Positions 5,030-62,306 of a DNA stretch of 64,000 bases are shown one piece after another (within the stretch, counting starts at the first letter, position 1; each line of letters begins with the position of its first letter). The notes under the pieces were generated by a model, which was not told the DNA's origin, searched no databases, and saw only the letters and a list, made by a program, of their open reading frames with translations. The translations under genes and the position numbers were made by a program. Location: contig NZ_SMKO01000001.1 of the NCBI RefSeq assembly GCF_004348685.1, positions 62,001-126,000 on the forward strand. The letters run 5' to 3'. The stretch is from Nonomuraea deserti. Its GTDB lineage: Bacteria; Actinomycetota; Actinomycetes; Streptosporangiales; Streptosporangiaceae.

Positions 5030-8000
5030 GTGAGCAAGTCGTTCGTGCATCTGCACGTACACACTGAGTACAGCATGCTGGACGGGGCGGCCAAGATCAA
5101 ACCGCTGTTCAAAGAGGCGGCGCGGCTTGATATGCCGGCCATCGCCATGTCGGATCACGGCAACATGTTCGGTGCGTACGAGTTCCAGAAGGTGGCGAAG
5201 GACAGCCCCGTCAAACCGATCATCGGCATCGAGGCCTACGTGGCGCCGGAGTCCCGGTTCTTCAAGAAACCGGTCTTCTGGGGTTCTCGTGCCGAGACCG
5301 GTGTCGCGGACGGCGAGGGCGGCAAGGACGTCTCCGGCGGCGGCCGGTTCACCCACATGACCATGTGGGCGAAAGACGCGGACGGGCTGCGCAACCTGTT
5401 CCGGCTGTCGTCGCTGGCGTCGGTCGAGGGTTACTACGGCAAGCCCCGCATGGACCAGGATCTGGTCGCGCAGCACGCGTCCGGGATCATCGCCACCACC
5501 GGCTGCCCGTCCGGCGCCGTACAGACGCGTTTGCGGCTCGGCCAGTACGACGAGGCCGTCAGGGTCGCCGGCGAATACCAGGAGATCTTCGGCAAGGAGA
5601 ACTACTTCCTGGAGTTGATGGACCACGGCATCGACATCGAGCGGGAGGTGCGGGCCGACCTGCTGCGGCTGGCCAAGCAGCTCGACATCCCGCTGCTGGT
5701 CACCAACGACTCCCACTACGTCACCGAGGACCAGGCCGACGCCCACGACAGCCTCCTGTGCGTCGGCGTCGGCAAGAACAAGGACGACCCGAACCGGTTC
5801 CGGTTCAACGGCTCCGGCTACTACCTCAAGCCGGCCGACGAGATGTACGCGCTGTTCCCCGAACTGCCGCAGGCGTGCGACAACACGCTGCTGGTCGCCG
5901 AGATGGTCGGCGACTACAGCGACGTGTTCGCCCAGGTGGATCGCATGCCTGACTATCCCGACGTGCCCGAGGGCGAGACGCAGGAGTCGTGGCTTCGTCA
6001 GGAGGTGGAGCGCGGCCTGGAGATGCGGTACGGCACCCCCGTCCCCGCCGAGGTGATGGAGCGGTACGAGACCGAGATGAAGGTCATCGGGCCGATGGGC
6101 TTCTCCTCCTACTTCCTCGTGGTGGCCGACATCTGCCGATACGCGCGGGACAACGGCATCCCGGTGGGTCCCGGTCGCGGCAGCGCCACCGGATCGATCG
6201 TCGCCTACGCCACGCGGATCACGGAGCTCGATCCGCTGGAGCACGGCCTGCTGTTCGAGCGGTTCCTGAATCCGGAGCGGATCAACCCGCCGGACGTCGA
6301 CCTCGACTTCGACGACCGCCACCGGGACCGGATGGTCAACTACGTCACCGACAAGTACGGCAGCGCGATGACCGCGCAGGTCAACACGTTCGGCACGATC
6401 AAGGCCAAGGCCGCCGTCAAGGACGCGTCCCGCATTCTCGGCTACCCGTTCGCCGTCGGTGACAAGATCACCAAGGCGATGCCGCCGGACGTCATGGGCA
6501 AGGGCGTCCCCCTGGCGGACATGTTCAACGAGGATCACCCGCGCTACAACGAGGGCGGTGAGATTCGCGCGCTGTACGAGAGCGACCCGGACGTGAAGAA
6601 GGTGATCGACACCGGCCGCGGCATCGAGGGACTGATCCGCGGCACCGGTGTGCACGCGGCCGCGGTCATCCTGTCGTCGGCGCCGCTGATGGACCTGATC
6701 CCCTTGCACCGGCGGGACAAAGACGGTGTGATCATCACCGGGTTCGACTACCCGTCGTGCGAAGACATGGGCCTGGTCAAGATGGACTTCCTGGGGCTGC
6801 GCAACCTGGGCATCATCGACCACGCCATCAAGATCATCGAGCAGAACCGGGGCATCACGCTCGACACCCTGACCATCCCGCTCGACGACGCGAAGACCTA
6901 CCAGCTCATGGCGCGCGGGGACACCCTGGGCGTGTTCCAGCTCGACGGCGGCCCGATGCGCCAGCTCCTGAAACTGATGGAGCCGACCCGGTTCGAGGAC
7001 ATCGCCGCCGTGCTCGCCCTGTACCGGCCGGGCCCGATGGCGGCCAACGCGCACACCAACTACGCGCACAGGAAGAACGCCCGGCAGGACATCGAGCCCA
7101 TCCACCCGGAGCTGAAGGACGCCCTGGACCCGATCCTGGGCCCGACGTTCCACCTGCTCGTCTACCAGGAGCAGATCATGGCCGTCGCGCGGGAGCTGGC
7201 CGGCTACACCCTGGGCGGCGCCGACCTGCTGCGTCGCGCCATGGGCAAGAAGAAGAAAGAGATCCTGGACGCGGAGTTCGCCAACTTCCAGAAGGGCATG
7301 CGCGCCAACGGCTACAGCGACGACGCCATCCAGGCCCTGTGGGACGTCATGCTGCCGTTCTCCGGCTACGCCTTCAACAAGTCCCACACCGCCGGGTACG
7401 GCCTGGTCGCCTACTGGACCGCGTACCTGAAGGCCAACTACCCCGCCGAGTACATGGCCGCCCTGCTGACCTCCGTGGGAGACGACAAGGACAAGGCGGC
7501 CGTCTACCTCGCCGAGTGCCGCAAAATGGGCATCCAGGTCCTGCCCCCGGACGTCAACGACAGCCAGCTCGACTTCGTCGCGGTCGGCGACACCCAGGTG
7601 CGGTTCGGCATGGGCGCGGTTCGCAACGTCGGCGAGAACGTCGTCGACGCGATCGTGAAGGCCCGTAAGGAGAAGGGCCTCTACCAGGACTTCAACGACT
7701 TCCTCGGCAAGATCCCGCTGACCGCCTGCAACAAGCGGGTCATCGAGTCGTTGATCAAGGCAGGGGCGTTCGACTCGCGCGACCACCCGCGCAAGGGCCT
7801 GCTCATGGTTCACGAACAGGCCGTCGACCAGGTCAGCGGCATCAAGAAGCAGGAGGCGCACGGCCAGGACTCACTGTTCGGCGGCCTGGCCGACGCGGGC
7901 GCCGACGAGGTGTTCACCGTCACGGTCCCCGACATGGAGTGGGACAAGAAGACGAAGCTCGACTTCGAGCGGGAGATGCTCGGCCTGTACGTCTCCGACC

Positions 8001-8581
8001 ATCCCCTGGCCGGCACCGAACGGATCCTGGCCAGGAACCGCGACACCACGATCGCCGACCTGCTCGAGTCCGGCCGCGACGACCGCGGCGACATCGCCGT
8101 GTGCGGCCTCGTCACCAAGGTGGACAAGAGAGTCAACAAGGCCGGCAATCTCTGGGCGATCGCCACGGTCGAGGACATGGACGCCGCCGTCGAGTGCCTG
8201 TTCTTCCCCAAGAGCTACGTGCTGTACGCCGACTCGCTGCGCGAGGACATCGTGGTGGCCGTCCGTGGCCAGATCAACAACCGGGACGGCGCCATCAGCA
8301 TCTTCGCGACGGATCTCACCCCGATCGACGTGTCCGGCGTCAACAGTGACGGCGCCCCGATCACCCTCCTGCTCAGGGAGGAACGCGTCACCCCGCAGTT
8401 GCTCGAAGAGCTCCGGCACGTGCTGAAGCTGCACGAGGGCAAGGTCCCGCTGCACATCAACCTGAAGCGCCCGGCCGGGAAGACCATGGTGCTGGCGGTG
8501 CCGGACTTCCCCGTCAACGCGGAGCCCAGCTTCGCCGCCGATGTGAAGGCGCTGCTGGGGCCGGAAGCAATCACGCTGTGA
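5030..8581 (+). CDS. dnaE: DNA polymerase III alpha subunit
   Basis: A protein of 1183 residues, full length for DnaE1, the replicative polymerase. The N-terminal PHP domain has intact metal-ligand motifs (HLHVHTEYS with His7, His9, His11; SDHGN). In actinobacteria this domain is known to act as the 3'-5' proofreading exonuclease. The palm carries the acidic motif PDVDLDF at residues 421-427 and KMDFLGL for the third aspartate. A helix-hairpin-helix region follows, then a clamp-binding motif QDSLF starting at Gln946, then the OB fold. The GTG at 5030 gives the conserved MSKSFVHLHVHTEYS start. The next gene starts inside its stop codon (GTGA). Confidence 0.97.
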   Translation: MSKSFVHLHVHTEYSMLDGAAKIKPLFKEAARLDMPAIAMSDHGNMFGAYEFQKVAKDSPVKPIIGIEAYVAPESRFFKKPVFWGSRAETGVADGEGGKDVSGGGRFTHMTMWAKDADGLRNLFRLSSLASVEGYYGKPRMDQDLVAQHASGIIATTGCPSGAVQTRLRLGQYDEAVRVAGEYQEIFGKENYFLELMDHGIDIEREVRADLLRLAKQLDIPLLVTNDSHYVTEDQADAHDSLLCVGVGKNKDDPNRFRFNGSGYYLKPADEMYALFPELPQACDNTLLVAEMVGDYSDVFAQVDRMPDYPDVPEGETQESWLRQEVERGLEMRYGTPVPAEVMERYETEMKVIGPMGFSSYFLVVADICRYARDNGIPVGPGRGSATGSIVAYATRITELDPLEHGLLFERFLNPERINPPDVDLDFDDRHRDRMVNYVTDKYGSAMTAQVNTFGTIKAKAAVKDASRILGYPFAVGDKITKAMPPDVMGKGVPLADMFNEDHPRYNEGGEIRALYESDPDVKKVIDTGRGIEGLIRGTGVHAAAVILSSAPLMDLIPLHRRDKDGVIITGFDYPSCEDMGLVKMDFLGLRNLGIIDHAIKIIEQNRGITLDTLTIPLDDAKTYQLMARGDTLGVFQLDGGPMRQLLKLMEPTRFEDIAAVLALYRPGPMAANAHTNYAHRKNARQDIEPIHPELKDALDPILGPTFHLLVYQEQIMAVARELAGYTLGGADLLRRAMGKKKKEILDAEFANFQKGMRANGYSDDAIQALWDVMLPFSGYAFNKSHTAGYGLVAYWTAYLKANYPAEYMAALLTSVGDDKDKAAVYLAECRKMGIQVLPPDVNDSQLDFVAVGDTQVRFGMGAVRNVGENVVDAIVKARKEKGLYQDFNDFLGKIPLTACNKRVIESLIKAGAFDSRDHPRKGLLMVHEQAVDQVSGIKKQEAHGQDSLFGGLADAGADEVFTVTVPDMEWDKKTKLDFEREMLGLYVSDHPLAGTERILARNRDTTIADLLESGRDDRGDIAVCGLVTKVDKRVNKAGNLWAIATVEDMDAAVECLFFPKSYVLYADSLREDIVVAVRGQINNRDGAISIFATDLTPIDVSGVNSDGAPITLLLREERVTPQLLEELRHVLKLHEGKVPLHINLKRPAGKTMVLAVPDFPVNAEPSFAADVKALLGPEAITL

Positions 8582-8919
8582 ACCAGCGGGTGGATGTGGT
8601 GACGTCGGCAGAGCCGCCTGTGTGCCCGCGCTGCCGCGGTGAGGCGCTGCTGTGGGCCCGGGTCCCGTACGGGTGGGCCAACAGGGAAGGCGGGCGGGTG
8701 GCTGGGCGCACGGGGGTGGTGCTGTGCCCGGCGTGCGACGCGCAGGCGCCGAACGCGGCCGCGCTGATCACCTGGTTCCATGTCCACGGCCAGGCCGACG
8801 ACGAGGACGAGGAGTTCGTGCGCCTGCTGGTGGGGTGGGCCACCAGCGTGTCCGTGCCGCCGCTGGACGAGCACGCGCCGGAGGCCGAGATCGAGCGGTG
8901 GCTGCGCGGGGACCTGTAG
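8578..8919 (+). CDS. Zinc-ribbon protein, DUF6300-like
   Basis: A protein of 113 residues translationally coupled to dnaE through a GTGA overlap. Two CxxC pairs (CPRC near residue 16 and CPAC near residue 50) should form a zinc ribbon. The rest is an acidic helical C-terminus ending in ERWLRGDL. It resembles actinobacterial DUF6300 proteins of unknown function. The overlap with dnaE suggests cotranscription but does not by itself imply a replication role. A strong hairpin follows the stop codon. Confidence 0.7.
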   Translation: MNQRVDVVTSAEPPVCPRCRGEALLWARVPYGWANREGGRVAGRTGVVLCPACDAQAPNAAALITWFHVHGQADDEDEEFVRLLVGWATSVSVPPLDEHAPEAEIERWLRGDL

Positions 8920-55404: not shown

Positions 55405-56049
55405 ATGGATGCTCCTATGTCGTGTCAAGCGACTGCTAGAAGATCGTTTCCGCGGGCTGTCGGGCTGGTCAGGACCCAGGCCGTCAGGGCGTCCACGATC
55501 ACGAAGCTGTACCGGGACCTCATGGCCGGCGGCGGGAAGAACGGCCGGCCGCTTTCCTCACGGACGGTCGACTACGTCCATGCCATCCTCCGCAAGGCAT
55601 TCCGCGACGCGGTGAACGTCGACGAGTTGTTGTCGTCCAGCCCGGTCGACAAGGCCAAGCGTCCCCGCCGCGAGATCAGGGAGCCGGGCACCGTTTGGAC
55701 CACGGACCAGCTCAAGGCATTCCTCCGCTACTCCCGCGATCACCGTCTCTGGCCCTTCTTCCACCTGGCGGCCTACACCGGTGCACGTCGTGGCGAGCTC
55801 CTGATCAAGCGCTACAACGAGACCTACCCGGACCACCCGCTACCGCATGCCCGGCTCCACGATCTGAGGCACATCCATGCGACCACGCTTCTCCTGGCCG
55901 GTGTGCCGGTCCACGTCGTAGCGGCCCGCCTCGGCCACGCCGACCCCTCGATCACCCTGAGGGTCTACGCCCAAGTGATCCGCGCGGCGGGAGCCTCGGC
56001 CGCGGAGGTCTTCGCGAAGTCGATCAACGACCAGAAAGGCTGGTGTTAG
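55405..56049 (+). pseudogene. Tyrosine recombinase (integrase) with internal deletion
   Basis: A 214-residue frame. The core-binding part (LSSRTVDYVHAILRKAFRDA) and the first catalytic Arg in AAYTGARRGELL are present. Box II (HDLRHIHATTLLLAGVPVHV, then RLGH) and the catalytic Tyr in LRVYAQV are also present. Only about 25 residues separate the first Arg box from box II instead of the usual 70-100, and the N-terminal arm-binding domain is missing. It ends 83 bp from tRNA-Arg(ACG), the expected int-att position. Confidence 0.75.
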
Positions 56050-56132: not shown

Positions 56133-56178
56133 TGTGCGCGGCCGACAGGAGTCGAACCCGTAACCTTCTGATCCGTAG
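56133..56178 (-). repeat. attR-type tRNA-side copy of the 46-bp repeat
   Basis: The 3' half of the intact tRNA-Arg(ACG) gene plus five flanking bases, repeated at 47716-47761 with one mismatch. Confidence 0.9.
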
Positions 56179-56209
56179 TCAGATGCTCTATCCATTGAGC
56201 TACGGCCGC
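56137..56209 (-). tRNA. tRNA-Arg(ACG)
   Basis: 73 nt on the minus strand including the discriminator G, without encoded CCA. The acceptor stem is GCGGCCG with CGGCCGC. The anticodon stem TCTGA/TCAGA encloses CTACGGA, giving anticodon ACG. The T loop is GTTCGACTCC. It was rebuilt by the integrated element, and its displaced 3' half lies at 47.7 kb. Confidence 0.95.
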
Positions 56210-56811: not shown

Positions 56812-56945
56812 GTGTTCCAGTGTCCGGCGGGGTGCGGGCCGGCACATCGTCAGCGAAAACGAGCTTGTGGATACATCGAAGGGTGTATCCACAGGCGGTC
56901 GCGTAGCAGGAGGGAACCGGGTCCGGAGGGTGGTGGGATGAGGAT

Positions 56946-58082
56946 ATGAAACGGGTGGCGTTGGGTGCCGGGCTCGCGTTCGCGACGGGGCTGGTGCTGA
57001 TCGCGGGCGGGGCGCACTTCCAGCGTGGCCTGCCCGAATGGTGGCTCGCCGGGCCGCTGGCGTTGACCTGCGCGGCAGTGCTGGTGCGGCGGCGGGCGCC
57101 GCGGCTGTGCCTGGGTCTGGGGGTGGCGGGCATCGCGGCCGACGTGGCGGTGGGGCCGTCGCTGGGCACGATTCTCGTCTTCACCGACAACCTGTACGCC
57201 GCGGCGCTCTACGGGCCGGCCAGGCTGGCCCGGTGGCTGCTGGGCATCAGCGCGGTGCTGGCGGTCGTCGTGGGGGCGGTGACGGGCTTCGTCGAAGGTG
57301 ACTGGCTGGTGCCGGCCGTCATGGGCATCCAGGCCGGGCTCGTGCTGGTCACTCCCGTCCTCACCGCGATGGTGGTGCGGGAGCAGCGGGATCGGGCAGT
57401 GGCCGAGCGGGAGCGGGCCGAGCAGGTGGCGCATCTCGCCGAGCTCGATCGGCAGGCGGCGGTGGCGGCCGAACGCACCCGGATGGCTCGCGAGCTGCAC
57501 GACATGATCGCCAACCATTTCAGCGCCATCGCCATCCAGTCCACGGCCGCGCTCTCGCGCAAGGACCTCGATCGGGCGACGGTGCGGAAAATCATGGAGT
57601 CCGTACGGGAGAACAGCCTGCAGGGCATGGCCGAGATGCGGGCGATGATCGGGCTGCTGCGGCACGAGGGCGATGATGCGGAGGAGGTGACCCGGCCGCG
57701 GCTGGCCGATGCGGAGAGCCTGGTCGACAGGGCCAGGCGGGCGGGCATGGAGGCGGAGTTCCGGGTCGAGGGCGAGCCGCGCGAGGTGCCGGCGGCCGTC
57801 GATCTGGCCGGCTACCGCATCCTGCAGGAGGCGCTGACCAACGCGCTCAAGCACGGCGACTCGCTGGTGGAGGTGGTCGTGTCCTACGGCCCCGAGCAGG
57901 TGACGTTGACGGTCGACAACCCGGTCCAGGGGAGCGACGCGCGGCTGCCGGGGGCCGGGGCGGGGCTGATCGGGATGCGGGAGCGGGCGTCCCTGGTGGA
58001 GGGCTCCTTCGAGGCGGGTCCCCAGGGGGACGGATGGCGGGTGGCCGCGGTGCTCCCCGCGGCTCCCGGTGAGAAGTCGTGA
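56946..58082 (+). CDS. NarL-type sensor histidine kinase
   Basis: A protein of 378 residues. Four to five membrane helices (residues 5-140) are followed by a coiled coil (REQRDRAVAERERAEQVAHL). The HisKA_3 box ARELHDMIANHFSAIAIQ contains the phospho-His. The HATPase domain has LQEALTNALKHG and GAGAGLIGMRERASLV. It senses an unknown envelope signal and phosphorylates the response regulator encoded 28 bp downstream. A run of membrane and lipid-type genes on the same strand follows. Confidence 0.93.
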   Translation: MKRVALGAGLAFATGLVLIAGGAHFQRGLPEWWLAGPLALTCAAVLVRRRAPRLCLGLGVAGIAADVAVGPSLGTILVFTDNLYAAALYGPARLARWLLGISAVLAVVVGAVTGFVEGDWLVPAVMGIQAGLVLVTPVLTAMVVREQRDRAVAERERAEQVAHLAELDRQAAVAAERTRMARELHDMIANHFSAIAIQSTAALSRKDLDRATVRKIMESVRENSLQGMAEMRAMIGLLRHEGDDAEEVTRPRLADAESLVDRARRAGMEAEFRVEGEPREVPAAVDLAGYRILQEALTNALKHGDSLVEVVVSYGPEQVTLTVDNPVQGSDARLPGAGAGLIGMRERASLVEGSFEAGPQGDGWRVAAVLPAAPGEKS

Positions 58083-58110: not shown

Positions 58111-58740
58111 GTGAGCATCAGGGTGCTGGTGGCCGACGATCATGCGGCGGTCAGGGCCGGGATCGTGCTGATCCTCGACGGCGTGGACGACATCGAGGTG
58201 GTCGGTGAGGCGGCCGACGGGGAGCAGGCCGTGGCGATGGCCAGGGAGTTGCGTCCGCACGTGGTGTTGATGGACGTACGCATGCCCCGGCTCGACGGCA
58301 TCTCCGCCGCCAGGGAACTGTCGGGGGTGTGTGATGTGCTGATCCTGACGACGTTCGATGTGGACGAGTACGTTTTCGGGGCGCTGCGGGCCGGGGCTGC
58401 CGGCTTCCTGCTGAAGAACACCGACGCCGATGCGCTGGTCGAGGCGGTCCGGCTGGTGGCGCGGGGCGACGGGCTCATCTCGCCCGGTGTCACGCGGAGA
58501 TTGATCGCCGCTTTCGCGGAGCAAGCGCCGCGCAGGGAGCCGCGTCCCGGCCCGGAGGGTCTGACGCCGCGGGAGCGGGAGGTGCTGGCCTGCATCGGGC
58601 GGGGCCTGTCCAACGCCGAGATCGCCAGAGAGCTCGACATGGCGGAGGCCACGACGAAGACGCACGTCAGCCGGGTGCTGAACAAACTGGGCCTGAAGAG
58701 TCGCGTGCAGGCGGCGATTTATTACTCAGAGGGGGCATAA
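58111..58740 (+). CDS. NarL/LuxR-type response regulator
   Basis: A protein of 209 residues. The receiver domain (1-115) has acidic pocket ADDHAAVR, phospho-acceptor Asp in VVLMDVRMPRLDG, Thr in LILTTFDVDEY and Lys in FLLKNTD. The LuxR HTH (about 148-205) is LTPREREVLACIGRGLSNAE and IARELDMAEATTKTHVSRVL. The GTG at 58111 has GGAGG at 7 nt. It is partner of the preceding kinase. The next gene starts 7 bp after its stop, so it may control its own downstream genes. Confidence 0.94.
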   Translation: MSIRVLVADDHAAVRAGIVLILDGVDDIEVVGEAADGEQAVAMARELRPHVVLMDVRMPRLDGISAARELSGVCDVLILTTFDVDEYVFGALRAGAAGFLLKNTDADALVEAVRLVARGDGLISPGVTRRLIAAFAEQAPRREPRPGPEGLTPREREVLACIGRGLSNAEIARELDMAEATTKTHVSRVLNKLGLKSRVQAAIYYSEGA

Positions 58741-58747
58741 AGCGTGG

Positions 58748-59116
58748 ATGACCACGCCTCCGCCGACCGGGCCGCCGACCGGGCCGCCCTCCGGGCCGCC
58801 GTCTGGGCCGCCGTCCGGGCCGCCGCCTCCTCGCCGGACCGGGCTGGTCGTGGGGCTGGCGTTCGCCGGGGTGTTCGGCTATCTGCTCGTCAACGTGGCC
58901 GTGGGGTTGGTCGCCGTGTCCGTGGGGTCGACGGCGGCCTTCGGGGTCGCGGCGGGAGTCCTTGCGGTGGTGGGTCTCGGGCTGGGCACCGCATTCGTGC
59001 TGCTGCGCAAGCCGTGGTCGCGAGGGCTGGGGCTGGGGTTGATGATCGGGTGGGCGCTGGCGTCGATCGTGTCGGCCGGTTACTGTACGGGGCTCAATCC
59101 CGAGTTGTACGCGTAG
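58748..59116 (+). CDS. Pro/Gly-rich two-to-three-TM protein 1
   Basis: A protein of 122 residues. The N-terminal 30 residues are repeats of GPPSGPP type. Three hydrophobic segments follow, ending with GLGLGLMIGWALASIVSAGY and CTGLNPELYA. The C-terminal block is shared with the next protein, so they are paralogs. No known function. It starts 7 bp after the response regulator stop. Confidence 0.75.
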   Translation: MTTPPPTGPPTGPPSGPPSGPPSGPPPPRRTGLVVGLAFAGVFGYLLVNVAVGLVAVSVGSTAAFGVAAGVLAVVGLGLGTAFVLLRKPWSRGLGLGLMIGWALASIVSAGYCTGLNPELYA

Positions 59117-59146
59117 GCGGCGCCTGTTGGCCAATGTCAACCGGTT

Positions 59147-59173
59147 CCTCCTAGTCTGATCCCGACTAGGAGG
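59147..59173 (+). promoter_or_regulatory. Hairpin covering the ribosome site of the next gene
   Basis: A perfect 10-bp stem (59147-59156 with 59164-59173, 7-nt loop) whose 3' arm contains AGGAGG, the ribosome site 9 nt before GTG 59183. It could block translation until opened, or act as a dyad operator. Confidence 0.6.
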
Positions 59174-59182
59174 TGAGCGTCA

Positions 59183-59797
59183 GTGGGGACGCCGGGTGAT
59201 GAGGGGCCGGAGCAGGGGTGGGTACCACCGCAGGGGCCTCCGTCTCAGGGGCCTCCATCTGAGGGGTCTTCGCCTCAAGGGCCAACCTCTCATGGGCCTC
59301 CGCCCCAAGGACCTCCCTCTCAAGGGAGCCCGTCCCAAGGGCCACCGCCGTACGGATCGTCGCCATACGGACCACCGCCTGAAGGCCCACCCCAAGGCCC
59401 ACCTCAAGGCTCGTACCAAGGGCCGCCCCAAGGACAACCGCCCTACCAGCACCTCCCGTACGGCCCTCCGCCGCCGCCCCCGTCGGGAGGCGCCTCCGCC
59501 GGTGTGCTGATCGCGTTCATGTTCGTCGGCCTGACCGTCTACAGCGTCATCAACGCGGTCCTCGGGTTCGCCGTCTTCTTGGCCGCCATGGAAGCCGACG
59601 GTGGCTCCACCCCGTACGTGATCGTCGGCGCGGCCGTGCTCGCCCTGGTCGGATTGGGTGCGGGCATCGGGTTGTGCCTGGTCCGCGGCAAGGTCTGGGC
59701 GAGAGGCACCGGCCTCGGGCTGATGATCGGGTGGGCGCTCTGGTCGATCCTGACCGCCGGCATCTGCACGGGGCTCAACCCCAGCGTGTACGGCTGA
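59183..59797 (+). CDS. Pro/Gly/Gln-rich three-TM protein 2
   Basis: A protein of 204 residues. The first 100 residues are QGPPSQGPP-type repeats (many Pro, Gly, Gln, Tyr), probably disordered. Three membrane segments then end in GTGLGLMIGWALWSILTAGI and CTGLNPSVYG, matching the preceding paralog. Function unknown. The cytoplasmic Pro-rich tail may be a scaffold. The next gene starts 3 bp after its stop. Confidence 0.75.
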   Translation: MGTPGDEGPEQGWVPPQGPPSQGPPSEGSSPQGPTSHGPPPQGPPSQGSPSQGPPPYGSSPYGPPPEGPPQGPPQGSYQGPPQGQPPYQHLPYGPPPPPPSGGASAGVLIAFMFVGLTVYSVINAVLGFAVFLAAMEADGGSTPYVIVGAAVLALVGLGAGIGLCLVRGKVWARGTGLGLMIGWALWSILTAGICTGLNPSVYG

Positions 59798-59800
59798 AGC

Positions 59801-60532
59801 ATGCCTTATCACGAGATCTTCGTCGGCCTCGGCGTCCTGGTGGCCTCCGCGGTCTTCGTGTGGGAGGCGAGAAGGCGTGGGGCGTTCAACGAGCAGTCGT
59901 TGATCGCTGTCGCCGGGGCTCTGGTGGGCGGCGCCATCGGGATGCGCCTGGCGGGCTGGCTGGAGACGCTCGACCTCGAGGACCTCTGGCTGTACGGTTC
60001 CCGCAGCGTTCTCGGCGGCCTGACGGGCGCGTACGTGGGCGTCCTGGTGGCCAAGAAGCTCATCGGTTACAAGGAGCGCACCGGTGACCTGTTCGCCCCG
60101 GCGGTGGCGCTGGGGATGGCGGTCGGTCGGATCGGCTGTCATCTGACGGAGGCTCCGGGCCGGCCGACCGATCTGCCGTGGGGCGTGCACGCCCCGCCGA
60201 CCACCCCTGAGTGTCCCGGCTGTCTCACCGGCCAGGCGATGCACCCGTCGTTCGTCTACGAGATCGTCTTCCAGCTCGCCGCGTTCGCCGTGCTGCTCTG
60301 GGCCCGCAGGCGGCTGGCCCGGCCGGGGGAGTTGTTCACCCTCTACGTCGCCGCGTACGCCGTCTTCCGTTTCCTCGTCGAGTTCACCAGGGCCAACGAG
60401 ACGGTCTGGCTGGATCTGACCAGGCCGCAGTGGTTCCTGGTCCCGGGCGTGCTGCTGTTGTCCCTCAGGCTCGGGTACGGCTGGCGGCGCGGCTACTACG
60501 ATTCCCTCTTCGAACGGAAGGTCCTGCCATGA
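59801..60532 (+). CDS. Lgt-fold membrane protein lacking canonical catalytic residues
   Basis: A protein of 243 residues with about seven membrane segments, aligning with prolipoprotein diacylglyceryl transferase. The Lgt signature appears as GRIGCHLTEAPGR (Arg110, Glu117) with Cys113 in place of the essential Asn. The HGG motif reads VLGGLTG with Leu71 in place of His. The C-terminal HPSFVYEIVFQLAAFAVLL and FRFLVEFTR (Arg190, Glu194, Arg197) are retained. So the lipid-binding frame is kept but the lipoprotein-transfer site is altered. It may act on phosphatidylglycerol or diacylglycerol for a different acceptor. Its stop overlaps the radical-SAM start (ATGA). Confidence 0.85.
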   Translation: MPYHEIFVGLGVLVASAVFVWEARRRGAFNEQSLIAVAGALVGGAIGMRLAGWLETLDLEDLWLYGSRSVLGGLTGAYVGVLVAKKLIGYKERTGDLFAPAVALGMAVGRIGCHLTEAPGRPTDLPWGVHAPPTTPECPGCLTGQAMHPSFVYEIVFQLAAFAVLLWARRRLARPGELFTLYVAAYAVFRFLVEFTRANETVWLDLTRPQWFLVPGVLLLSLRLGYGWRRGYYDSLFERKVLP

Positions 60533-62073
60533 GCACAGGGATGGGGCTGCGGGGCGACCGCATTCTCAGGTACGTCAATGCGTTCTGCCCGAGTTGTCAC
60601 GGCCGCGACCTCGATCGGGTGGAGCGGCTGAGCGGCTATCTGGCCGAGCGTGACGGCAAGGTCTGGCTGGAACGCGGATGCCGCGAACACGGATTTATCC
60701 GGACTCTGTACGACGAAGACCCGGAAATCTTGGCGTACCTCGAAGAATGGACCGCTCCCACCAAGCAGCACATGCCGGATGTGTCGGGGAACTTTCGTCA
60801 GGTCCCCGAGGCGTACCTCCACGGCCTCCCCGAGATGCAGACCCAGCACACCTGCATCCTCCTCGAAGACATCGCGGAAGCCTGCAACCTGCGCTGTCCC
60901 ACCTGCTTCGCCGACAGCTCGCCCGACCTGACCGGCATCGTCCCCGTCCCCGACATCCTCGCGAACGTCGACCAGCGCCTCGGGCGCGAGAACGGCAAGC
61001 TCGACGTCCTCATGCTGAGCGGCGGCGAGCCGACCCTCCACCCCGAGCTCGGCACCCTCCTGGCCGAGCTGGTCGACCGCCCGGTCACCCGCATCCTGAT
61101 CAACACCAACGGCGTCCTCGTCGCCAGGGACGACGCCCTGCTCGACCTGCTCGCCGAGCACAGGGAGCGCGTCGAGGTCTACCTCCAGTACGACGGCTCG
61201 GCCGAGGCCTCGAAACACCACAGGGGCGGCGACCTCACCCGCATCAAGGCGCAGGCCCTCCAGCGCCTGTCCGAACGCGAGATCTTCACCACCCTCGTCA
61301 TGACGGCCGCGCTCGGCGTCAACGACGGCGAGATCGGCGACGTCGTACGCCTGGCCCTCGACACCCCGTACGTCGGAGGCGTGTCACTGCAGCCCCAGTT
61401 CGGCTCCGGCAGGTCGGGCACCATCGACCCGGACGACCGGCTCACCCACACCGGCGTGCTCAGCCGCCTGGGCCCGCAGACCGGCGGCCTGGTCACCTGG
61501 CGCGACCTGACCGCGCTGCCCTGTTCACACCCGCACTGCTGCTCGGTCGGCTACCTCATCCGCGACGACGCCCGCGAGTGGCGCTCGCTGACGGCGCTGA
61601 TGGGTCACGACCGGCTCAAGGAGAACCTCGGCCTGGTCTCCAACCGCATCGCCGACACCGAGATCCCGCGCGAGCTGCGGCTGGCCGTACAGGAGTCCCT
61701 GCTCGGACTGCTGTCGGAGCAGTCGTCGCTCTCGCACCCGCAGATCGGCGACCTGTGGCGCGACATCTGCGAGAACTGCGACCTCGGCGTCTCCACCCTC
61801 CTCACCCTGGCGTCGTCGGCACTGCCGGGCCGGCGCAGGAAGTTGCGCAGGATGATGGGGGAGCGGATCGTGCGCATCACCGTCAAACCGTTCATGGACA
61901 TCTCGACCATGATCGAGGAGCGGCTCACGCAGTGCTGCGTGCACGTGGGGACGCGTGCCGAGCAGGACCAGTGCGCGCCGTTCTGCGCCGTGCAGGCCTG
62001 GCCGCAGTTGTCGCGGCAGCGGTTGTCCGCGGTGGCCGCGCGGCCCAGCGTCCCGTTCGAGGTGGTGTCGTGA
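60529..62073 (+). CDS. Radical SAM protein, Tes/MJ0619-like
   Basis: A protein of 514 residues. An N-terminal Cys motif is CPSCHGRDLDRVERLSGYLA. The radical SAM cluster EACNLRCPTCF has Cys119, Cys123 and Cys126, followed by MLSGGEPTLHPEL. The C-terminal half has more Cys groups for auxiliary clusters: CSHPHCCSVGY, ICENCDLG, then ITVKPFMDISTMIEER and QCCVHVG with CAPFCAVQ. This layout resembles tetraether synthase (Tes) and bacterial membrane-spanning-lipid synthases that couple alkyl chains. It overlaps genes on both sides (ATGA and GTGA), so it acts with the Lgt-fold protein. Confidence 0.88.
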   Translation: MSTGMGLRGDRILRYVNAFCPSCHGRDLDRVERLSGYLAERDGKVWLERGCREHGFIRTLYDEDPEILAYLEEWTAPTKQHMPDVSGNFRQVPEAYLHGLPEMQTQHTCILLEDIAEACNLRCPTCFADSSPDLTGIVPVPDILANVDQRLGRENGKLDVLMLSGGEPTLHPELGTLLAELVDRPVTRILINTNGVLVARDDALLDLLAEHRERVEVYLQYDGSAEASKHHRGGDLTRIKAQALQRLSEREIFTTLVMTAALGVNDGEIGDVVRLALDTPYVGGVSLQPQFGSGRSGTIDPDDRLTHTGVLSRLGPQTGGLVTWRDLTALPCSHPHCCSVGYLIRDDAREWRSLTALMGHDRLKENLGLVSNRIADTEIPRELRLAVQESLLGLLSEQSSLSHPQIGDLWRDICENCDLGVSTLLTLASSALPGRRRKLRRMMGERIVRITVKPFMDISTMIEERLTQCCVHVGTRAEQDQCAPFCAVQAWPQLSRQRLSAVAARPSVPFEVVS

Positions 62074-62306
62074 ACAAGGAGCCGTACGATCCGCTGCGGT
62101 TGTGCGTGTACGCGACCGTGGCGCTGCTGGCCTGGCTGCTCGGGCCGTGGGCGGTGCTCGGGTTCGCGGTGCTGGGGTTCGCCGGTTACTGGAGGGCGCG
62201 GCGAGCCGGGCTGACCCGGAGCAAGTGCCTGCTCAGGGACACCCGGCTCGTGCTGGCCTACCTCGCCCTCATCGGCGTGGCGGCACTCGCGGCGATCATC
62301 CTCTGA
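62070..62306 (+). CDS. Small membrane protein of the radical-SAM operon
   Basis: A protein of 78 residues starting at GTG inside the radical-SAM stop (GTGA). Two or three membrane segments (CVYATVALLAWLLGPWAVLG and VLAYLALIGVAALAAIIL) flank a basic loop RARRAGLTRSKCLLRDTR. Probably an accessory or anchoring subunit. I do not recognise a family. Confidence 0.7.
   Translation: MNKEPYDPLRLCVYATVALLAWLLGPWAVLGFAVLGFAGYWRARRAGLTRSKCLLRDTRLVLAYLALIGVAALAAIIL

Follow-up and report, generated by a model that had tools for sequence, protein, structure and literature searches.

Lgt transfers diacylglycerol from phosphatidylglycerol to a cysteine located where an in-to-out helix ends on the outer side (PubMed Central [PMC] papers PMC8689077 and PMC13251419), and the radical S-adenosylmethionine (SAM) enzyme Tes (GDGT-MAS; MJ0619) is reported to bind two lipids and couple their tails, acting on free phospholipids (PMC9433317). 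About 1,300 genomes are said to carry two lgt copies (PMC13251419), and bacteria are reported to have Tes homologues whose product is not known (PMC9433317, PMC8941075). In a 64,000-nucleotide stretch of the Nonomuraea deserti genome (contig NZ_SMKO01000001.1, positions 62,001 to 126,000; hereafter, the window), an Lgt paralog adjoins a Tes-fold radical SAM protein (rSAM). These two, mostly with a small hydrophobic protein (STM) and one or two membrane proteins with a proline-rich tail (TM), make up a conserved unit: a discrete, horizontally spread cassette, which in the window sits behind a two-component system. Its members are as follows (positions within the window).

58748 to 59116, plus strand: TM1, proline-rich tail and three helices; C-terminal Cys113 (codon 59084 to 59086), proposed diacylglyceryl acceptor
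59183 to 59797, plus strand: TM2, GTG start, TM1 paralog with a longer proline-rich tail; Cys195 (codon 59765 to 59767), proposed acceptor
59801 to 60532, plus strand: Lgt paralog, 243 amino acids, PF01790 at 110.3 bits
60529 to 62073, plus strand: rSAM, 514 amino acids, Tes-fold radical SAM protein
62070 to 62306, plus strand: STM, small hydrophobic protein with two conserved cysteines (LCV..., SKC.LRDTRLV)

The protein families are known, and their combination is new insofar as we found no description of an Lgt and radical SAM cassette in the open-access PMC literature. The bacterial Tes homologues and the second Lgt copies, two puzzles, are a single system in one actinobacterial lineage, with a candidate acceptor adjoining. 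An earlier note, made from these letters alone, had described seven plus-strand genes in which an Lgt-fold protein is paired with a Tes-like rSAM; gene coordinates and families confirm the seven genes, and the PF01790 match, the Tes-fold model, and the conserved adjacency confirm the pairing.

From the 348 encoding stretches returned by a scan of named genomes we took the best 80 loci, which belong to Nonomuraea, to other Streptosporangiaceae, to Mycobacteriaceae, and to Nocardia, and built profiles from them; the 100 loci examined comprise these 80 and 20 from further genomes. A cassette rSAM is present in 88 of the 100 loci, the other 12 holding only distant relatives, and the Lgt paralog lies directly upstream of or beside the rSAM in 86 of the 88, both misses (L070 and L131) being at contig edges with 446 and 2 bases of contig remaining. 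No Lgt match was found in the stretches fetched for the 12 loci with distant actinobacterial rSAM relatives. Profile searches detected TM in 81 and STM in 65 of the 88 cassette loci; L057 and L058, which represent one organism, and L059 are all kept in the 88-locus and TM counts. L059 is a 3.8-kb contig filed as Nocardia aurea that carries a Nonomuraea-type cassette, with an rSAM 87% identical to that of the window, and is probably contamination, a Nonomuraea contig filed under Nocardia.

Nonomuraea and Thermoactinospora have the gene order TM(-TM)-LGT-rSAM-STM; the order is LGT-TM(-TM)-rSAM(-STM) in most of the remaining loci and LGT-rSAM(-STM) in family f58. In an all-against-all comparison of neighborhoods, the Lgt paralog and rSAM families each occur in 16 taxon groups, STM in 13, and TM in 12; after these comes a family that looks MarR-like by eye and mostly lies at a distance, with 10 groups, and the rest reach at most 8 (among the 45 widest families), those reaching 6 or 8 groups all being confined to Streptosporangiaceae. 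Because the Lgt paralog, rSAM, STM, and TM recur most widely, the cassette rather than its flanks is the unit that moved, and because the gene set is conserved far outside this genome, its association is beyond chance. We consider it almost certain that the cassette forms one functional unit.

The linkage of the Lgt paralog to the rSAM is well supported. Among 396 Mycobacterium genomes (thresholds of E 1e-100 or better for the rSAM and E 1e-50 or better for the Lgt paralog), the rSAM occurs in 96 and the cassette Lgt in 100; all 96 rSAM-bearing genomes have both on the same contig, within about 1 kb of each other in 95. The co-occurrence of the two families in actinobacteria, for which the earlier note had suggested a search, is thus upheld, and the neighborhood is conserved, the lack of such conservation being one of the findings that the note said would refute it. 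In the exception, G628, 112 kb separate the Lgt gene from TM and rSAM (loci L198 and L199), and the TM frame by the rSAM is seemingly cut inside the proline-rich tail. Four Mycobacterium genomes (G340, G420, G470, and G669) have the Lgt paralog without the rSAM, the G420 copy being broken; in G669 (L200) the Lgt paralog stands alone, with neither TM nor rSAM detected within 10 kb. This spot has probably seen large insertions or losses; part of the G628 sequence is masked.

Across the phylum, the same 6 of 296 genomes carry both the rSAM and the Lgt paralog, and the Lgt match falls from E 1.7e-50 to E 1.5e-28 beyond these six; a partial, distant match (46% over 129 residues) was seen in G241 of this sample. 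A full rSAM is present in 23 of 41 relatives, always with the Lgt paralog at the locus (23/23). Of these 23, 20 belong to the window's genus, from which 25 genomes were included; the other five are without the cassette or retain a remnant. Such a remnant of cassette deletion stands at L029 (G006, of the window's genus), where the tail of the rSAM gene and part of STM come straight after the kinase and regulator genes. The cassette recurs outside the class and is plasmid borne on Mycobacterium branderi pJCM12687 and Mycobacterium avium pS2b. Its presence in 96/396 Mycobacterium genomes, on plasmids, and in culturable Nonomuraea, the laboratory strain Nonomuraea gerenzanensis among them, leaves its product open to direct search.

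The rSAM is the most conserved cassette member (70 to 81% identity to the Mycobacterium copies), the closest named relative of the window copy among the best 80 loci being that of Nonomuraea longispora, at 95% identity. Pfam assigns it Radical_SAM (PF04055) and an N-terminal Zn_ribbon_HMPTM. Its predicted structure (predicted local distance difference test [pLDDT], 76.0; predicted template modeling score, 0.83; weak at residues 110 to 135, which include the radical SAM cysteines, and at 368 to 380) has the Tes fold over the whole chain: the model matches Tes (7TOL/7TOM) with a Z score of 43.9 (root mean square deviation of 3.3 over 437 residues), the next entry having a Z score of 18.5, and the Foldseek match to Tes has an E value of 1.7e-29. 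The best curated sequence families are TrsS (NF045646; 189 bits, cut-off of 490) and Tes (NF045702; 145.3 bits, cut-off of 450), neither cut-off being reached; apart from a Tes intein variant at 62 bits, the next NCBIfam families stay under 40 bits and are mostly maturases of peptides or cofactors. The rSAM does not, then, fall among peptide- or tRNA-modifying enzymes, the placement that the earlier note had regarded as fatal to its proposal.

In common with Tes, the rSAM has, besides the whole-chain fold, a rubredoxin-like C-C-C-H set (C20, C23, C51, and H54, aligned to Tes C9, C12, C33, and H36 and invariant in 29 alignment rows), the radical SAM CxxxCxxC motif (C119/C123/C126), and C337, C469, C470, and C486, which align with four C-terminal cysteines of Tes that presumably bind its [Fe4S4]C cluster. 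It differs from Tes in scoring below the curated cut-off, in lacking the cysteines of the [Fe4S4]N cluster, in forming its own clade, and in being partnered by an Lgt paralog. The clade of cassette rSAMs is monophyletic (100/100) in a tree without the viral fragments L161 and L164 and the long rows L141 and L142; support is 60/78 when those four rows are included. A grouping of Tes with the cassette clade is not rejected (approximately unbiased test, p 0.196). Judged from sequence, the cassette rSAM is a separate clade, distinct from both Tes and TrsS; cut-offs, ligands, and tree rule out assigning it to either. The suggestion of the earlier note that the rSAM joins lipid tails is accordingly reduced to an analogy, as the protein is not Tes by ligand set or curated cut-off.

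Several smaller observations concern the same protein. It contains a conserved basic stretch, LPGRRRKLRR; the rSAMs of L132, L133, and L148 score 184 to 195 bits against the TrsS model, and that of L133 (family f44; 7002 to 8846, minus strand) has an insertion of ~70 residues between the radical SAM core and the C-terminal part. Six weak matches of viral origin show 23 to 31% identity, and two of them sit far off in the tree. An in-frame TGA had been flagged as possible selenocysteine; in G361 and G659, the two cases checked, it is an ordinary stop.

The Lgt paralog matches PF01790 over most of its length, far above the cut-off of 24.9 bits, and 5AZB with an E value of 6.2e-13; it scores 78 bits against the Lgt equivalog TIGR00544, under the cut-off of 118.9. 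In all 23 cassette Lgt paralogs compared, including those outside the class, G142, R143, G145, G154, Y235, R239, E243, and R246 (Escherichia coli numbering) are retained; PF01790 and all but the first of these residues are what the paralogs have in common with E. coli Lgt (5AZB/5AZC). They differ from it in falling under the equivalog cut-off, in the changes Y26H, H103L, and N146C, in an added cysteine pair present in most copies (19/23 and 20/23; CPGC in the window copy), and in forming a separate clade (100/98) apart from 23 other Lgt-family proteins. At E 0.001, the N. deserti genome has two Lgt-family genes, the window copy and a canonical-type copy on contig 36 (220 bits).

Two Mycobacterium genomes carry LGT-TM-rSAM-STM with the rSAM gene about 75 kb from another porin copy. 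The porins of these genomes are 98 to 99% identical to MspA, and by locus numbers the position would fit MSMEG_5408. This second Lgt homologue of Mycobacterium smegmatis is reported to have Y26H and N146C, as the cassette Lgt does, and low Lgt activity is presumed for it (PMC13251419). MSMEG_5408 may be a cassette Lgt.

No Pfam family reaches its cut-off with TM1, TM2, or STM. TM proteins consist of a variable proline-rich tail, three helices, and a conserved end; in the AlphaFold model of TM1 (pLDDT, 88.8), the helices span residues 31 to 59, 62 to 85, and 89 to 115, Cys113 being inside the last. TM open reading frames (ORFs) were picked by the Gly/Trp part of the end only, with no cysteine required, which gave 102 in the 88 loci. 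A G-x-C, nearly always followed by TG, lies eight residues after GW in 97 of them, and in the second copies of L081, L082, L084, and L086, VVGC or IVGC stands a few residues further on, near a canonical lipobox; the third ORF of L081 is a chance ORF, so that all 101 TM genes have a cysteine at the C-terminal end. Two TM genes are present in 20 of the 88 loci. The loop preceding the last helix is net positive in 18/18 rows and, as positive loops are cytoplasmic under the positive-inside rule, the cysteine is predicted to be outside. The predicted arrangement, a positive segment and then an in-to-out helix with the cysteine at its outer end, is the geometry of a lipoprotein signal peptide.

The proteins in the TM slot of L147 and L148 are recognizable but divergent (that of L148 is among the 97), and the slot of L133 holds a DUF2510 protein; all three, like the third gene of a Bacteroidota plasmid locus described below, encode a cysteine near the C terminus after a hydrophobic helix. 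The same signature occurs in 3 of 582 neighborhood membrane-protein genes unmatched by the TM profile, one of the three being the L133 slot protein. Other than the two operon copies, no TM relative better than E 0.01 was found in the N. deserti genome, and a fold search with the TM1 model gave no match with an E value below 0.001.

Evidence from outside the phylum consists of one case, plasmid pPP1 of Persicobacter psychrovividus (Bacteroidota). It carries an Lgt-family gene (84.9 bits) that overlaps the gene for an rSAM of the Tes/TrsS type; a third gene, which overlaps that of the rSAM at ATGA, encodes a 59-amino-acid membrane protein ending GTGICGSLLS. Within the plasmid collection, the closest matches of the Persicobacter Lgt are Lgts of the cassette (E 2e-22 to 8e-19, versus 3e-7 or weaker for other Lgts), and in the tree it groups with them at 100/99 on a long branch. 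Its rSAM partner retains CPYDCGLCPDH, a motif lost from the actinobacterial clade, and its position in the rSAM tree is poorly supported (65/46). For the third protein, the plasmid collection yielded no relative.

These features suggest a mechanism that we advance tentatively, on sequence, models, and analogy, and hold to be somewhat short of probable: the Lgt paralog would lipidate the TM cysteine, and the rSAM would act on the lipid tails. In detail, the Lgt paralog, with arginines proposed to bind the phospholipid headgroup, would transfer diacylglyceryl to the C-terminal cysteine of TM, whose last helix would enter from the cytoplasm after the positive loop and act as a lipoprotein-signal-peptide-like element at the C terminus. 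The rSAM would be cytosolic and membrane associated, perhaps docked via STM, and its 5'-deoxyadenosyl-radical chemistry might be directed at the acyl tails of the donor lipid or of the lipidated protein, where it would functionalize or couple unactivated carbons in the manner of Tes, the one member of this fold with a solved structure. A specialized membrane lipid, protein bound or protein organized, would result.

The components of this proposal differ in strength. That the pathway acts on a lipid or a lipid-modified protein is probable. That the TM cysteine is the acceptor is close to an even call, falling slightly on the doubtful side; it is the simplest reading because TM has the geometry of an Lgt substrate beside an Lgt paralog that keeps its headgroup residues, and we raised our estimate a little because of the lipobox-like VGC in second TM copies. 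The earlier note had given no explanation for the proline-rich membrane proteins; the best pointer to the substrate of the Lgt paralog is their conserved C-terminal cysteine, and the presence of two TM copies in some loci suits a substrate role. Action of the rSAM on lipid tails is likewise nearly balanced, just under even; its substrate is more likely a lipid than a TM peptide because the Lgt paralog and rSAM persist without TM. A more specific version, a dedicated system unlike Lgt-LspA-Lnt in which the C-terminal cysteine is lipidated and the tails are functionalized or cross-linked, possibly into a membrane-spanning anchor, would be a long shot. If the lipid-anchor reading is true, actinobacteria, including many mycobacteria, would have a radical-SAM-modified protein lipid anchor, of which we know no earlier example; if TM lipidation or rSAM tail chemistry is true, the cassette would be more than a variant of known families.

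Several observations weigh against lipidation of TM and tail chemistry by the rSAM. Six residues of E. coli Lgt are reported to be indispensable (Y26, H103, R143, N146, G154, and R239; PMC13251419). The cassette Lgts have R143, G154, and R239; the other three are changed in all 23 (Y26H, H103L, and N146C), and H103, the proposed base of Lgt, is a leucine. The canonical lipobox is given as [LV][ASTVI][GAS]C (PMC8689077), which the usual TM G-x-C does not match, position -1 being mostly F, I, Y, L, or W; the window tails SAGYC and TAGIC, with G at -2 and a variable -1, fall outside it, the VVGC of the second L081 copy conforms, and the IVGC of L082, L084, and L086 conforms except for Ile at -3. 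LGT-rSAM-STM occurs without an adjoining TM in f58 (L129 and L132) and in the divergent Mycobacterium genomes G361 and G659, and alignment searches did not find TM elsewhere in three f58 genomes. The third Persicobacter protein is TM-like in layout only, its DUF4190 match (E 0.02) being below cut-off. In the rSAM, C73, C77, and C80 of the Tes [Fe4S4]N cluster have no cysteine counterpart, H107 and C109 lying nearby. Lys453 and Val473 replace Met439 and Tyr459 of Tes in the alignment, which is weak evidence because Tes mutants M439A, Y459F, and Y459L are reported to stay active (PMC9433317). Finally, TrsS-like relatives match the Tes model too, so fold alone does not fix chemistry.

The main rival is a pathway for free lipids, in which the rSAM would modify or couple the tails of free phospholipids, the Lgt paralog would move diacylglyceryl to a small-molecule or lipid acceptor, and TM and STM would be structural or regulatory. 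The Lgt paralog and rSAM are the minimal set in the four TM-less cases named above, Tes itself acts on free phospholipids (PMC9433317), and the rSAM is the most conserved member, with a basic stretch that could bind anionic lipid; this reading nevertheless leaves the conservation of the TM cysteine and the doubling of TM in 20/88 loci unexplained, and the neighborhoods offer no gene for such an acceptor, no other family there being as widespread as those of the cassette. We consider it possible but rather unlikely. The Lgt paralog might instead be degenerate, a lipid-binding scaffold or presenter for an rSAM that performs an unrelated reaction, such as methylation. The three substitutions fixed in 23/23 copies, the low activity presumed for the similarly changed MSMEG_5408 (PMC13251419), and the methyltransferase genes that adjoin most TrsS-like relatives would all fit; R143, R239, Y235, E243, and R246, on the other hand, are aligned in 23/23, also outside the class, N146 is a cysteine in 12/23 of the other Lgt-family proteins compared, and no methyltransferase gene directly follows the cassette rSAM in loci read gene by gene. 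An N146C Lgt, that of Leptospira interrogans, is reported to restore E. coli morphology and, poorly, viability (PMC13251419). On this balance, degeneracy appears distinctly unlikely.

Slightly more improbable still is peptide-type chemistry, in which the rSAM would modify the C-terminal segment of TM as a membrane-bound precursor resembling those of ribosomally synthesized and posttranslationally modified peptides (RiPPs), the Lgt paralog lipidating or only binding TM. A conserved end after a variable proline-rich tail does resemble a precursor core, and the rSAM model has peptide maturases such as SuiB and SkfB among its next structural neighbors, but these maturases reach Z scores of only 16.0 to 17.6, against 43.9 for Tes, and align over about half the residues; no leader-binding domain (RiPP recognition element) appears in the Pfam results, the TM cysteine is predicted to be outside, away from a cytosolic rSAM, and several cassettes are without TM.

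Relatives resembling TrsS appear, from sequence, to be a second Tes-like system: in L135 to L140, L144, L145, L159, and L187 to L189, from actinobacteria and haloarchaea, TrsS-like rSAM genes adjoin a methyltransferase gene. TrsS is the best NCBIfam match of the cassette rSAM, which has Q106, H107, and C109 in common with the TrsS-like proteins of L135 and L136; the two differ in that TrsS-like loci mostly have an adjoining methyltransferase gene whereas the cassette rSAM, in loci read gene by gene, is followed by STM or unrelated genes. We use the methyltransferase partner as a working TrsS feature, taken from the outgroup loci. Among 16 of these, a methyltransferase gene adjoins the rSAM gene in 8 by Pfam, in 4 by annotation, and in 2 by eye (L142 and L143); none was seen in L141, and L146 is truncated where its contig ends. 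The outgroup proteins of L135, L136, and L144 score 314 to 336 bits with the TrsS model and 303 to 324 bits with the Tes model, all under the cut-offs.

Upstream of the cassette in the window are further elements of the operon and its candidate control regions, as follows.

56867 to 56892, no strand: perfect palindrome, GTGGATACA-N8-TGTATCCAC, putative operator ahead of the kinase gene
56946 to 58082, plus strand: NarL-family sensor histidine kinase, HisKA_3 E 3e-14, hydrophobic N-terminal segments judged by eye
58111 to 58740, plus strand: NarL/LuxR-type response regulator, Response_reg and GerE (Pfam)
59147 to 59173, plus strand: hairpin between TM1 and TM2, the 3' arm of which carries the TM2 Shine-Dalgarno sequence

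The order, all on the plus strand, is kinase, regulator, TM1, TM2, Lgt paralog, rSAM, and STM, the last four being tightly spaced or overlapping: gaps measure 28 bp (kinase to regulator), 7 bp (regulator to TM1), 66 bp (TM1 to TM2), and 3 bp (TM2 to Lgt paralog), followed by 4-bp overlaps of Lgt paralog with rSAM (ATGA) and of rSAM with STM (GTGA). The overlaps, the short gaps, and 66 bp as the largest gap stand as the earlier note had given them; its statement that no other gap exceeds 7 bp does not, given the 28 bp between kinase and regulator. In the kinase, HisKA_3 scores above cut-off (53.7 bits) and HATPase_c just below (22.8 bits, cut-off of 26.4).

Of the 80 named loci, 26 have a strong kinase match (at least 58% identity): 25 in Nonomuraea and one in Thermoactinospora. 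The only other kinase match in the named loci is 33% identical. The kinase and regulator pair is a local accessory, outside the conserved cassette; the whole operon, two-component pair included, had been proposed as the unit, a view we rejected as the other named loci are without a strong kinase match. The kinase gene starts 54 bp downstream of the palindrome, whose core, GGATACA..TGTATCC, recurs in 19 of the 26 kinase-bearing named loci, in L051 between divergent kinase and TM genes; the core was found 0 times in 838,688 bp of non-Nonomuraea loci scanned. The hairpin that the earlier note had placed in the 66-bp gap is real, with 10-bp perfect arms at 59147 to 59156 and 59164 to 59173, the 3' arm including AGGAGG; at -20.4 kcal/mol, its energy is not unusual for its composition, as 25 of 200 shuffles fold equally well. 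Nearly the same inverted repeat stands upstream of the TM genes in L033, L036, and L044, all Nonomuraea, of 34 loci inspected. Palindrome and hairpin together suggest that the cassette is regulated in Nonomuraea, where the envelope signal proposed by the earlier note is hypothetical.

Just upstream of the operon, an ORF at 55405 to 56049 resembles a tyrosine recombinase by eye (HDLRH...TLLLAGVPVHVVAARLGHA) and ends beside a tRNA-Arg gene (56136 to 56209), an arrangement that, by eye, looks like one left by an element integrated at the tRNA gene.

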